Shown: positions 388 to 7,763 of the stretch, piece after piece
Layout: every line of letters begins with the position of its first letter
Position numbering within the stretch: position 1 is the stretch's first letter
Origin: Thermoprotei archaeon
Lineage (GTDB): Archaea; Thermoproteota; Thermoprotei; Thermofilales; B15-G2
Direction: 5' to 3'
DNA: 50,023 bases
NCBI GenBank assembly: GCA_003650815.1
Contig: QMSB01000003.1
Span: forward strand, 1-50,023
Notes under the pieces: model-generated
What the model was told of the DNA's origin: nothing
The model's input: the letters and a program-made list of their open reading frames with translations, nothing else
Database searches by the model: none
Program-made: the position numbers and the translations under genes

Positions 388-697
388 TCTTGCTCACCAT
401 TGAGTAAAGTATCACAGCTCCAACATGCGTACACATACTCTTTCTTCTTCTGCCAGAGTAATGCCTTTCAAGAGACTGACATGAACATCTAAATTTTCCT
501 CTATTTTCGTCATACACTACTATGTACATCGAGTACCAGTCTCCGAGACTAGCTCTCCCCCTCACTATCCACATAGTCTTTGATACCTCGACTACATCTC
601 TGAGCCTTCTTTTACATCGCTTAATAAAGCTAAGACTTTTCCCCTCTTTTATCATTTTATCTTCAAATTCTTTAATAGGGTCTTTAGGCTTAGACAT
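374..697 (-). CDS. SWIM zinc-finger protein linked to radA
   Basis: A 107-residue protein with a basic N-terminal half and a SWIM zinc motif: C71-x-C73, then C89-x-H91 (CSC...MCTHVGAV). SWIM proteins bind nucleic acid or partner proteins; the eukaryotic Shu2/SWS1 family carries the same motif and works with Rad51 paralogs. The ATG at 697 overlaps the end of radA by 8 bp, so the two are probably translated together. The motif and coupling are visible in the sequence. A role as a RadA accessory factor is inferred by analogy. Confidence 0.85.
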   Translation of the reverse strand: MSKPKDPIKEFEDKMIKEGKSLSFIKRCKRRLRDVVEVSKTMWIVRGRASLGDWYSMYIVVYDENRGKFRCSCQSLERHYSGRRRKSMCTHVGAVILYSMVSKSDSD

Positions 698-1631
698 CTT
701 CTACTCCTCTCTCTGTTATCTTAAAGACCGCACTAGCTTTGTAGGGGAGTCTTGGAGAGTCCAATACCTCCATTATTCTCGTAGAGTCTTTACTCCTCTT
801 GAGGAGAAGCCTATGTGTACACGCATGCGCCATTATCATTCCTCCAGCAGGTCTCTTTGTTTCACCGTAGGATAACGGGACTTCAAGCACTTGATTTGTC
901 ACAACAACGTATACTCCGTAAATTTTGGCTATTCTAAGCAGCCAGTCTAAGACATAGTTTAGTCTCTGCTGCCTTGCAGCTAGCATTTCTCTTCCTTTAA
1001 ACTCAGCCCTGTATAGAGAGATTATGCTATCTACAAGAATTAGTCTCACATTCTTTTCTTCAATTAGTTTAATTGCATCTAGTTTTATTGAATCCTCTAG
1101 GTCTGCGACGTTAATCACCTTTATTACATTAATATTTTCTAATGCATGTGAAGGATCTAAGTTGAATCTTAAGCAAATTGCAGACACTCTGTTTGGAGAA
1201 AATGCTTCCTCAGTATCTATGTACAAACAAGCGCCCCCGACACCTCCCCTGTTTCTCGATAGTTGAACAGTGACTGAGAGTTGGTGACATATCTGCGTCT
1301 TTCCGCTACCGAACTCTCCCGCCAGCTCATATATCACCCTAGGCTCTATTCCTCCTTCTAAGAGCTCATCAATAGCTTTTACTCCAGTCGTAAGTCTAGG
1401 ATGATCTTTCATTTTTTCAGCGTAATCTTTCGCTGTAGTGCATATTCTAGTTCTAACAAGTCTTCGAGCTGCTCTAGTTATTCTTTCAGCACGATCAGGA
1501 GTGAGCTCTACTAGCTCAATCAGCTCCTCTGGATTAAATAGAGCTAGGTGCCTCGGACTCATAATACCTTTGCTAGAAAGTAATTTTGCTGTTTTAGGTC
1601 CCACTCCTGGCACTTCTTCGAGACACTTCAT
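690..1631 (-). CDS. radA: RadA-family recombinase, divergent
   Basis: Archaeal Rad51/RecA homolog for strand exchange. Residues 1-60 are the helix-hairpin-helix N-terminal domain (EEVPGVGPKTA). Then come Walker A GEFGSGKT (105-112), Walker B LILVD (197-201) and NQV (246-248). I chose ATG 1631: it forms an ATGA overlap with the upstream stop and has GAGGTG just upstream; a GTG at 1640 is the alternative. Several nearly invariant RadA segments differ. The linker FxxA polymerisation motif reads C64-T-T-A67, and the usual DTEGTFRPERI segment reads DTEEAFSPNRV. It is either this organism's main RadA in divergent form or a RadA paralog that kept the N-terminal domain. Confidence 0.93.
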   Translation of the reverse strand: MKCLEEVPGVGPKTAKLLSSKGIMSPRHLALFNPEELIELVELTPDRAERITRAARRLVRTRICTTAKDYAEKMKDHPRLTTGVKAIDELLEGGIEPRVIYELAGEFGSGKTQICHQLSVTVQLSRNRGGVGGACLYIDTEEAFSPNRVSAICLRFNLDPSHALENINVIKVINVADLEDSIKLDAIKLIEEKNVRLILVDSIISLYRAEFKGREMLAARQQRLNYVLDWLLRIAKIYGVYVVVTNQVLEVPLSYGETKRPAGGMIMAHACTHRLLLKRSKDSTRIMEVLDSPRLPYKASAVFKITERGVEDV

Positions 1632-1954
1632 TGAGACCACCTCTCAGCTATTCTTTCTTTAATCGAGATGAGGAGATTGATGACCTCTTCCAAGTCAGAT
1701 AACGCATCGCGATCTTCCTCCATGGCTACAAGCGCTTTCAGAGCAGAAATTATCTTTCTGTAGTCACTCAAAGTATACCATTCTTCTAGAATCAGTCTAT
1801 AATCACCTCTCTTCCCTCTAAGAAGTACTTTCTCAACTATCATAGGTCCAGACCTCGTGTGTACAAGCTTTACTCTCGCGAGTAGCACCCCCTTATTAGG
1901 TACTACTTTTATAGCCCATTCTACTTCTCGATTAGTTTTCCAAGTAACTCTCAT
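1628..1954 (-). CDS. Hypothetical protein in radA operon
   Basis: A 108-residue protein I do not recognise. The first 60 residues look like alternating beta strands rich in Val, Lys and Arg, followed by a helical C-terminus with acidic heptads (about 65-105). It has no cysteines and no membrane segment. The start is fixed by an ATGA overlap with the preceding gene (ATG 1952-1954, TGA 1951-1953), and its own stop overlaps the radA start in the same way. That makes co-translation with RadA likely and a role in the same process plausible, but no function can be assigned. Confidence 0.75.
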   Translation of the reverse strand: MRVTWKTNREVEWAIKVVPNKGVLLARVKLVHTRSGPMIVEKVLLRGKRGDYRLILEEWYTLSDYRKIISALKALVAMEEDRDALSDLEEVINLLISIKERIAERWSQ

Positions 1955-3529: not shown

Positions 3530-4510
3530 ATGAGAGAATACGAAGATTTTCATAAACTTATAGGCGATTTAAGAGATGGAAGGATATTTGGCTCGACTGA
3601 AGCCGCTGAGAAAGCCCTTACTTTTATTAAGGAGCAAGTCGGTCTCTGTAGCTCTCTAAACGAGATAAAGAATACTCTCATAGAGTATGTACCACCTCTC
3701 GTTAAAGCTAGGCCTACTTCTGCATTAACTGTTAACTGTCTTAGGGAAATTGTTGAACTGACTATTGACTGCATTAAAAGAAAGATGGATGCTCAAAAAG
3801 TTAAGGAAAACATATGCAGTAAAATAGATGAAATGCTACGAAAAGCTCATGAGAGTGTAAAGATGATAGCTGGAATAGGAGCCAAGAGAATTAAAGACGG
3901 AGATACTATTTTAACTAATACCTACAGTTACACTGTTTTAAACGTCTTAGAGAAGGCTCGAGATGAAGGAAAGAAAATCTCGATATTTATCCCCGAGTCT
4001 AGGCCGGGTGGAGAAGGTATAGACATGGCTGTAGAGCTTTACAAGAGAGGATTTCCTGTAACGCTCTTCGTAGACTCGGCTGTGAGGTATATGATGAAAG
4101 AAGTGGATTTAGTGCTAATAGGAGCTGAGGCTATAGCCGCTAATGGTGCTGTTGTTAATAAGATTGGTACTTCTATGATTGCTCTTGCAGCACATGAAGC
4201 AAGAGTAAGAGTATTCGTAGCTGCTGGAACATATAAGTTTAGTTTAGAAACATTTCTTGGCGAAATAGTTGAACTGACGTACCGCAGGCCTGAAGTACTT
4301 CTATCTTCTCATGAGCTAAGAGCCTTAGGAAACGTTAAGGTATTATGTCCTGCTTTTGATGTGACTCCCCCAGAATACATAGATGCGATAATAACTGAGA
4401 GAGGAGTGTTCGCTCCTCAAGCAGTTCCTTTGATAGTTAGAGAGATCTTCGGGTGGCCTCCTTTAGTTAAGGATATTAGTGTGCTCATAGAAGAGCTAAA
4501 GAGGTGTTAG
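3530..4510 (+). CDS. eIF2B-alpha/R15P-isomerase-fold protein, probably non-catalytic
   Basis: Member of the eIF2B alpha/beta/delta and ribose-1,5-bisphosphate isomerase family, 326 residues. The core Rossmann-like half is clear (TILTNTYSYTVL, PESRPGGEG, DLVLIGAE, NGAVVNKIGT, PAFDVTPPEYID). The two catalytic residues of archaeal R15P isomerase (Cys and Asp, C133/D202 in the Thermococcus enzyme) are replaced by Thr131 and Glu200, as in eIF2B alpha-type proteins. It is probably an aIF2B-like regulatory or scaffold protein rather than an isomerase. It lies 1 bp from its active paralog and shares blocks of identical DNA with it. Confidence 0.88.
   Translation: MREYEDFHKLIGDLRDGRIFGSTEAAEKALTFIKEQVGLCSSLNEIKNTLIEYVPPLVKARPTSALTVNCLREIVELTIDCIKRKMDAQKVKENICSKIDEMLRKAHESVKMIAGIGAKRIKDGDTILTNTYSYTVLNVLEKARDEGKKISIFIPESRPGGEGIDMAVELYKRGFPVTLFVDSAVRYMMKEVDLVLIGAEAIAANGAVVNKIGTSMIALAAHEARVRVFVAAGTYKFSLETFLGEIVELTYRRPEVLLSSHELRALGNVKVLCPAFDVTPPEYIDAIITERGVFAPQAVPLIVREIFGWPPLVKDISVLIEELKRC
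4134..4226 (+). repeat. 93-bp block identical to 5125-5217
   Basis: Perfect 93-bp match between the two tandem paralogs at a constant offset of 991 bp. It begins TAGCCGCTAATGGTGC and ends GTATTCGTAGCTGCTG, with mismatches immediately on both sides. It encodes AANGAVVNKIGTSM and following residues in both genes. Confidence 0.97.
4348..4400 (+). repeat. 53-bp block identical to 5339-5391
   Basis: Second perfect match between the paralogs, also at offset 991 bp. It begins TCCTGCTTTTGATGTGACT and encodes PAFDVTPPEYIDAIITE. Flanking codons differ between the genes. Confidence 0.97.
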
Positions 4511-4511
4511 A

Positions 4512-5504
4512 GTGAACTACAAACTTCCAAAGGAAGTTCTTGAGATAGCTGAAGGCATAAGATCTATGAAAATAAGGGGTGCAGGAAGAATAGCTAGAGC
4601 AGCAGTGAAAGCGCTGAAAATAGCGGCTCTTGGCTACCGCGGGTCTAATGTGAAAGACTTCTACGACTACATGATGTATGCTTCTAAGCTTCTTCTGGCT
4701 ACGCGTCCCACGGCTGTCTCATTACCTAATGCCGTAGCGTATGTAATGTCTAGGCTCTCTAGGAACATAGAGGCTTTCTCGCTGAACGAGGCAGTAGATA
4801 GTGTTGTCAAATGGTCAGATGAGTTTATTGAATACTCGCTTAAGGCTACTCAGCTTATAGGAGAAATAGGAGAAGGTAGGATAAAGTCAGGAAACATTGT
4901 CCTCACTCACTGTAACAGCTCAGCAGCACTCTCTGTCATAATAACGGCACACAGAAAAGGGAAAGACATCAGAGTTTACGCGTGTGAAACTAGACCTAAG
5001 TTTCAGGGCAAGATCACAGCAAAGACTTTAGCCAAAGAAGGCATAGACGTAACCCTCATTCCAGACTCTGCTGTCCGCTTCTTTATGAAGGACGTAGATT
5101 TAGTGATAGTAGGTGCAGATACAGTAGCCGCTAATGGTGCTGTTGTTAATAAGATTGGTACTTCTATGATTGCTCTTGCAGCACATGAAGCAAGAGTAAG
5201 AGTATTCGTAGCTGCTGAAACTTATAAGTTTAGTCCAGCTACAGTTATCGGCGAGCTAGTCACTATAGAGGAGAGACCTCCTACCGAAGTTGTCGACAAA
5301 GATTTCTTAAGAAGATATCCTGGGATAAAGGTTAGGAATCCTGCTTTTGATGTGACTCCCCCAGAATACATAGATGCGATAATAACTGAGAAAGGCGTTA
5401 TCTCGCCTCATGCTGCCATACTAGTTTTGAGAGAAGAGTTCGCCTGGACACTTGAGGAGAGAATGAAGAAGTTGAAATTGACTCTAAACTATGAAATTGA
5501 GTAG
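4512..5504 (+). CDS. Ribose-1,5-bisphosphate isomerase
   Basis: Converts ribose-1,5-bisphosphate to ribulose-1,5-bisphosphate in the archaeal nucleoside-monophosphate degradation route that ends at RuBisCO; no RuBisCO or AMP phosphorylase gene is in this window. The N-terminal KIRGAGRIARAA motif, catalytic Cys134 (LTHCNSSA) and Asp203 (IVGADTVAANGA) are all present, and the length (330) is normal. The start is GTG at 4512, 1 bp after the upstream stop. It overlaps the following methyltransferase by 14 bp, so the three genes form an operon. Confidence 0.9.
   Translation: MNYKLPKEVLEIAEGIRSMKIRGAGRIARAAVKALKIAALGYRGSNVKDFYDYMMYASKLLLATRPTAVSLPNAVAYVMSRLSRNIEAFSLNEAVDSVVKWSDEFIEYSLKATQLIGEIGEGRIKSGNIVLTHCNSSAALSVIITAHRKGKDIRVYACETRPKFQGKITAKTLAKEGIDVTLIPDSAVRFFMKDVDLVIVGADTVAANGAVVNKIGTSMIALAAHEARVRVFVAAETYKFSPATVIGELVTIEERPPTEVVDKDFLRRYPGIKVRNPAFDVTPPEYIDAIITEKGVISPHAAILVLREEFAWTLEERMKKLKLTLNYEIE
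5125..5217 (+). repeat. 93-bp block identical to 4134-4226
   Basis: Partner copy of the first conversion tract. It starts 8 bp after the codon of catalytic Asp203 (GAT, GAG in the paralog), so the functional difference lies just outside the shared block. Confidence 0.97.
5339..5391 (+). repeat. 53-bp block identical to 4348-4400
   Basis: Partner copy of the second block. Sequence between the two blocks (5218-5338) is clearly diverged from the paralog. Confidence 0.97.
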
Positions 5505-6780: not shown

Positions 6781-7087
6781 TAAAGCGAGGCGGTGTTATT
6801 CGCTCGGCCTTGCACTTAGGGCATTTACTGGGTTTATGCGGCTTTGTCAAATTCTTAAAGATGTAGCCACAGTTAGCACAGCGTGGCGGATCCATGTAAA
6901 GTACTCCTCCTTTACGCCTTATGGTTTTGGCTATATGTCTTAGGTCCTCGTAGATCGTTTTAGCTTCCCTAGGGTCATAGATCCCTATGGCAGCTGCTAT
7001 TTCGTATACGCTTAGCGGTCTTGAAGTTCCAGATAGCACTTTAATTATTTTCTCTCGTCTACTTTCTTCTAGACTCACTTTTATCAA
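6767..7087 (-). CDS. HTH / zinc-ribbon transcriptional regulator
   Basis: About 106 residues. The N-terminal two thirds form a winged helix (REKIIKVLSGTSRPLSVYEIA...IYEDLRHIAKTIRRKGG), and the C-terminus is a rubredoxin-like zinc ribbon with CANCGY and CPKCKA. This is the layout of a widespread archaeal predicted regulator family (COG3357). The first codon is TTG at 7087; GTG at 7078 is a good alternative. It overlaps kptA by about 20-29 bp, so the two are an operon. Confidence 0.85.
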   Translation of the reverse strand: MIKVSLEESRREKIIKVLSGTSRPLSVYEIAAAIGIYDPREAKTIYEDLRHIAKTIRRKGGVLYMDPPRCANCGYIFKNLTKPHKPSKCPKCKAERITPPRFIIEY

Positions 7088-7763
7088 ACTTCTTTAAATT
7101 CTCTACCTTTATAACATTAACTATACAGTCGGGTGGAACATAGTCTGCTAAGTAAACTGTCCTAGACGCCTTAAATATCCTGTATCCTTTTCTCCTTAAC
7201 TTATCGGCGTCTATTATTAAGACCACAGAGGTTCCTCTTTTTCTACGAGCGTTTATCAGAGCGTCTTCTATAGAAGTAGTCATATGCACCTTTAGCCTCT
7301 TCATAGGTTTGAGTCCCTCTTTAAGAATTCTGCTCAATACTTCTCTTGAAGTTCCATGGTAGAGTACAGTGACATTATTGTCTTCTACTAGTCGAATATC
7401 GACCTTTATGCTATGTCCATATCTGGCTCTTATTTTATCTCCCTTTATCTCGAATCTCTGCTTAGGACAGAGTTCTGCTACTGCTCTTACATGCTCTTCG
7501 TGAAGCCATGAATAAAGCTCTCTTCTCGGCCATCTCTCTTTGATTGCTCTGACAAGTGCTGGTATTTTAACGAATCCTTCACTGTCTAGTTTTATACCTA
7601 CGCTGTCAGGTATATGCCTCAAAATAGCTGAAAGAAGCTTACTTAGTCTTAGTCTTCTTTCGCTGTCTAAAATTAGCTTACAGGGTCTTCCGCAGTGAAA
7701 AGAGTCTTCTGTAAACACTCCGCAGACTGAGCACTTATATATGTTTTTAAGTTTTTTATCCAT
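7059..7763 (-). CDS. kptA: RNA 2'-phosphotransferase KptA/Tpt1
   Basis: Transfers a 2'-phosphate from RNA to NAD+, giving ADP-ribose 1'',2''-cyclic phosphate. An N-terminal zinc knuckle (C11, C14, C24, C28) typical of archaeal forms precedes the family core: RLSKLLSAILRHIPDSVG, RARYGHS, LYHGTSREVLSRILKEGL and the final VHMTTS segment. The catalytic Arg/His set is visible in the LRH, HGT and RYGHS segments. The ATG is at 7763, followed downstream by the HTH gene. In archaea its natural substrate is unclear; it may act on 2'-phosphorylated or ADP-ribosylated ends. Confidence 0.94.
   Translation of the reverse strand: MDKKLKNIYKCSVCGVFTEDSFHCGRPCKLILDSERRLRLSKLLSAILRHIPDSVGIKLDSEGFVKIPALVRAIKERWPRRELYSWLHEEHVRAVAELCPKQRFEIKGDKIRARYGHSIKVDIRLVEDNNVTVLYHGTSREVLSRILKEGLKPMKRLKVHMTTSIEDALINARRKRGTSVVLIIDADKLRRKGYRIFKASRTVYLADYVPPDCIVNVIKVENLKKFDKSESRRK

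Follow-up and report, generated by a model that had tools for sequence, protein, structure and literature searches.

Archaeal chaperonin (thermosome) paralogs, which are subunits of one ring, exchange segments by gene conversion; they belong to a different family from the gene pair described here, and we know of no two-patch pattern in thermosome conversion. The nearest precedents for the present pair are the partial RF1/RF2 conversion in bacteria (PMC4530459) and the long-lasting concerted evolution recorded in a survey (PMC6053082). As in the present pair, RF1 and RF2 are functionally distinct paralogs in which conversion is partial and limited to the part with the same task, but there two events extended over almost a whole domain, whereas the genes considered here lie in tandem and are homogenised in many lineages at two separate short patches, one partner being an apparent pseudoenzyme. 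The survey likewise concerns recurrent homogenisation over deep time, mostly in members of complexes, but of whole genes; the seven archaeal genes in it come from methanogens without exception, the present (IF-2B) family is not among them, and partial-gene cases are named there as future work (PMC6053082). A search of the openly accessible literature retrieved no report on this gene pair.

The tandem genes A and B

The pair is located in a stretch of 50,023 nucleotides from a Thermoprotei archaeon (contig QMSB01000003.1), and this whole stretch, as analysed, is referred to as the window. The genes and their two diagnostic codons are the following.

3530..4510, + strand: gene A, an eIF2B-fold paralog in which Thr131 replaces the catalytic Cys and residue 200 is Glu; a probable non-catalytic subunit (PF01008, TIGR00511, residue comparison)
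4512..5504, + strand: gene B, ribose-1,5-bisphosphate isomerase, with a GTG start 1 nt past the stop of A (TIGR00511, PDB 3a11/5yfj)
3920..3922, + strand: codon A131 (Thr), corresponding to the catalytic Cys (B134) present in all B genes; the real active/inactive marker (Cys in 70/70 B and 0/70 A)
4127..4129, + strand: codon A200 (Glu), corresponding to the catalytic Asp203 in B; not a fixed marker (Asp in 13/70 A)

Both are tandem genes of the IF-2B family (PF01008), with A scoring 252.9 bits in the profile search. On TIGR00511, gene B reaches 412.7 bits against a cut-off of 314.1 with the catalytic Cys and Asp present, which places it among the R15P isomerases, whereas A, with 270 bits, falls under the cut-off of 314 and carries Thr and Glu at the two catalytic positions, and is therefore not assigned to them. 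Gene B matches the solved enzymes PDB 3a11/5yfj with an E value of about 1e-101, retaining Cys and Asp (Asp203), and shares its catalytic residues with the ribose-1,5-bisphosphate isomerase PH0208 (PMC5789824). Gene A is of the same family by sequence but, unlike PH0208, is without the Cys and several 1-phosphate ligands, as has also been reported for eIF2B alpha (PMC5789824). The equivalents of the 1-phosphate ligands Arg22 and Gln166 are lost from A; among the 5-phosphate ligands, Lys is kept and Ser mostly kept. Across 70 pairs, the Cys position in A is occupied by Ser (61), Thr (5), Ala (3) or Gly (1), and never by Cys.

Since A has neither the Cys nor these 1-phosphate ligands, it is probably a non-catalytic subunit which, judged by its residues, resembles eIF2B alpha in what is lost (Cys and some 1-phosphate ligands) and in what is kept (the 5-phosphate Ser and Lys). 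Six of the reported AMP-binding residues are present together in 64/69 A genes vs just 26/69 B genes, so that nucleotide binding may be the more constant property of A than of B. At Thermofilum-group loci (L023, L027, L031 and L068 among them) the AMP-site residues Arg225, Arg227 and Asp285 (A numbering) are lost in B and kept in A, which suggests that catalysis and nucleotide sensing are shared out between the two proteins. The window's genome also encodes the Rubisco and AMP phosphorylase required by the R15P pathway, the enzymes that flank this step in the archaeal AMP route (PMC9700705). Elsewhere in the window, positions 690-1640 (- strand) encode a Rad51/RadA-family recombinase with a helix-hairpin-helix domain, whose location about 2 kb from the pair is probably a coincidence, and positions 7059-7763 (- strand) encode a KptA/Tpt1-type RNA 2'-phosphotransferase.

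Searches of relatives and of named genomes, in which by construction A precedes B on one strand, retrieved 70 distinct tandem A-B pairs in the Thermoprotei, in records named Thermofilum, Desulfurococcales, Pyrodictiaceae, Zestosphaera, Sulfolobales and others; a search of the plasmid collection gave no match. In these pairs the B frame frequently starts right at the end of A or overlaps with it. Trees derived from the regions outside the homogenised blocks separate all A from all B (138/138), and this perfect split indicates that the duplication predates these lineages, which on such phylogenetic grounds makes A and B an old tandem duplicate pair.

Identical blocks in the window and their recurrence in relatives

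The initial annotation of the window had pointed to two perfectly identical blocks, of 93 bp and 53 bp, at an offset of 991 bp in otherwise diverged genes. These blocks are real and in frame in the two tandem ORFs, and their coordinates hold.

4134..4226, + strand: converted block 1, A copy, codons 203-232, 93 bp, identical to 5125-5217
5125..5217, + strand: converted block 1, B copy, identical to 4134-4226
4348..4400, + strand: converted block 2, A copy, codons 274-290, 53 bp, identical to 5339-5391
5339..5391, + strand: converted block 2, B copy, identical to 4348-4400
4232..4243, + strand: 12-bp identical run past block 1, after two differing codons; a possible remnant of a longer tract

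DNA identity between A and B in the other 20-codon bins is mostly 35-63%. Codons specifying the same residue are identical in 46/46 cases inside the blocks, corresponding to zero silent divergence, vs 31/78 elsewhere (Fisher p=1.3e-13). In a chance model in which codons were redrawn from the genes' own usage with the proteins fixed, the longest identical run averages 4 codons, with a 99th percentile of 8, vs 30 observed, and the chance probability given proteins and codon usage is about 10^-12.6 for the 93-bp block and 10^-6.0 for the 53-bp block. Shared runs at the very start of the B frame, which are merely overlapping frames, were left uncounted.

When the block limits as defined in the window were applied to all pairs, Fisher tests were individually significant after Bonferroni correction in 14/70, the window's own pair included. 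For 23/69 genomes, none of 2,000 codon-redraw simulations produced an identical codon run as long as the longest one observed, with two further genomes at p=0.0005. Identical runs spanning 8 codons or more number 38, of which 35 begin in the two segments and the other three in 182-199. Block trees place A as sister to the B of its own genome in 14 genomes (a list overlapping with, and not the same as, the 14 Fisher-significant ones), and flank trees do so in none. An AU test on a 20-genome subset, picked to include the 14 Fisher-significant genomes, rejected a topology forcing A and B apart for the blocks (p=0.00075, delta logL 220), with which a control segment of similar length was compatible; the trees and the AU test therefore both place blocks and flanks in phylogenetic conflict.

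The blocks of A are closer to the B of the same genome than to the A of the nearest compared genome in 13/14 Fisher-significant cases, the exception being L045. In the sister genomes L046 and L048, whose A flanks are 86% identical, three silent sites of block 2 differ between the species and match between the paralogs, none of them showing the ortholog pattern; block 1 of the same two genomes reflects ordinary descent. Over 18 sister pairs, such paralog-matching (concerted) sites are enriched in the blocks (odds ratio 3.0, p=1e-7). Conversion is slight or nearly absent in one clade, of 20 genomes (block 0.47, flank 0.41). In the L070-L099 clade, where conversion is near-absent, B has His, Asn or Asp at the position of the AMP-contacting Lys190 (A numbering).

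Origin, possible donor and limits of the homogenised tracts

Both segments belong to the best-conserved portions of the proteins, and purifying selection on the nucleotide sequence itself, through RNA structure or codon bias, might have kept the copies alike with no recombination involved. Comparison of silent sites with relatives, which the initial annotation had proposed as a check, makes this very improbable. Between distant genomes, the silent identity of same-residue codons (for A-A, B-B and A-B alike) is about 0.33 in block 1, 0.39-0.40 in block 2 and 0.34-0.36 in the flanks, whereas A and B of one genome reach 0.56 in block 1 and 0.65 in block 2 against 0.41 in the flank. The blocks therefore match only within one genome and are as diverged as the flanks between genomes, which rules out nucleotide constraint, the objection anticipated in the same annotation, as a general explanation. 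An assembly or binning artefact is less credible still: the window's assembly is fragmented (175 contigs, about 85% complete), but the same pattern is present in many independent assemblies, and a repeat misassembly would swap flanks rather than create identity. Since L033, from a 2-contig genome that is 99% complete, shows the pattern, assembly error is no general cause.

Equally hard to credit is a recent partial duplication, or a transfer into both copies from a third gene, for which a source of the right fold does exist on contig C151:

G000:C151:735-1646: third eIF2B-fold paralog (L003), unlinked to the pair and also without the catalytic Cys

This paralog shares identical runs of at most 11-12 bp with A or B, and was rejected as donor on that account. 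The lack of conversion with this unlinked gene is, as one case, in keeping with a need for proximity. In L117 and L018, the third paralog type adjoins a gene which, by eye from its translation, looks like a spermidine synthase.

Gene conversion at the same two patches, recurring across the class and independently in many lineages, is thus strongly supported. The claim of recent local recombination consequently stands in its local part, strongly backed by the tree conflict, the saturated silent sites between genomes and the recurrence, and falls where it implied a single recent event, since the same two places recur class-wide. In the window the blocks are B-like (log2 odds of -5.2 and -7.6, on few discriminating residues and against closest relatives of the same order only), which weakly suggests B as the donor and a transfer from B to A; as the closest compared relatives share just the order, the window's own event cannot be dated.

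The codon for Glu200/Asp203 had been taken as the divide between active and inactive paralogs, with the tract stopping short of changing activity. It is no fixed divide, since Asp occupies it in 13/70 A genes, five of which are in significantly homogenised pairs; what separates active from inactive copies throughout is the Cys at A131/B134, at a long distance from the tract. The argument on activity is correspondingly weak, as Asp is found at this codon in homogenised A genes and amino-acid changes are not overrepresented at tract ends, and a protective border at Glu/Asp200 was rejected on the same two observations. The first mismatch beyond a tract is non-synonymous in 49/70 cases (70%) vs 72% of flank mismatches, which gives no sign of selection at the borders; left ends alone, a comparison not pre-specified, have somewhat more amino-acid changes (30/35). 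Longer tracts with protected residues inside them were also rejected, because silent identity just beyond the tract ends is 0.44, near baseline. No fixed paralog-specific residue is present inside the tracts, which follows in part from the way identical runs are delimited.

The homogenised segments in the protein

When the residues reported for PH0208 (PMC5789824) are transferred by the numbering of our own alignment, all four inter-dimer hexamer contact residues (226, 229, 287 and 288) fall inside the blocks, two per block, vs 0/6 dimer-contact residues; 4/8 AMP-site residues are also inside, as are Asn214/Lys215. This supports the view that the homogenised parts have a common function in A and B and might make contact with each other in a mixed hexamer. 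Such an interface reading draws on literature-mapped residues of a homologue, and the A-B complex is hypothetical; the observation bearing on a putative hetero-hexamer is the conserved adjacency of the genes, with their frequently abutting or overlapping frames. Conversion showed no significant dependence on whether the AMP site of B is intact (p=0.12).

Very probably, then, the pattern reflects repeated gene conversion between the old tandem duplicates A and B at two segments, with interchangeable parts of the hexamer interface as a further step of interpretation. Non-reciprocal transfer is the mechanism that we infer for a homogenisation whose position, recurrence and lineage specificity are matters of observation. 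Homologous recombination between the adjoining copies would repeatedly overwrite A codons from about 203-232 and 274-290, where the proteins stayed nearly identical and pairing would thus be possible, and where no paralog-defining residue would be swapped (the catalytic Cys, the 1-phosphate ligands, Glu at 233 and Asn at 273). What would keep both segments interchangeable is their role as the inter-dimer interface, and as a portion of the AMP site, in a hexamer perhaps common to A and B.

Whether selection has a part in this conversion divides the possible readings. There is about an even chance that conversion simply occurs at the sites of greatest similarity, where it does no damage, and that its coincidence with the hexamer interface is without selective meaning: similarity by itself predicts these two segments, tract ends look random as regards amino-acid change, and silent identity drops to baseline at once. 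Amino-acid matching within genomes does exceed that of shuffled pairing in block 1 (z=6.7), contact residue 222 included, but conversion itself would cause that. It is distinctly less probable, and can be offered only tentatively, that conversion is selected as a form of interface maintenance, by which both sides of one protein-protein contact, and a nucleotide site as well, would be kept compatible in a mixed hexamer of an enzyme and an inactive partner that regulates it, for as long as an archaeal class has existed.

Repeated conversion between A and B provides a natural replicate series, of about 70 pairs with 14 or more of them homogenised, in which to ask what makes conversion persist in certain parts of a diverged gene pair and not elsewhere. 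It also carries a warning, in that whole-gene trees of the A and B paralogs mix two histories. Finally, it raises the testable possibility of an enzyme/pseudoenzyme hexamer in nucleotide salvage in archaea, formed by members of the protein family from which the eIF2B regulatory subunits also arose.
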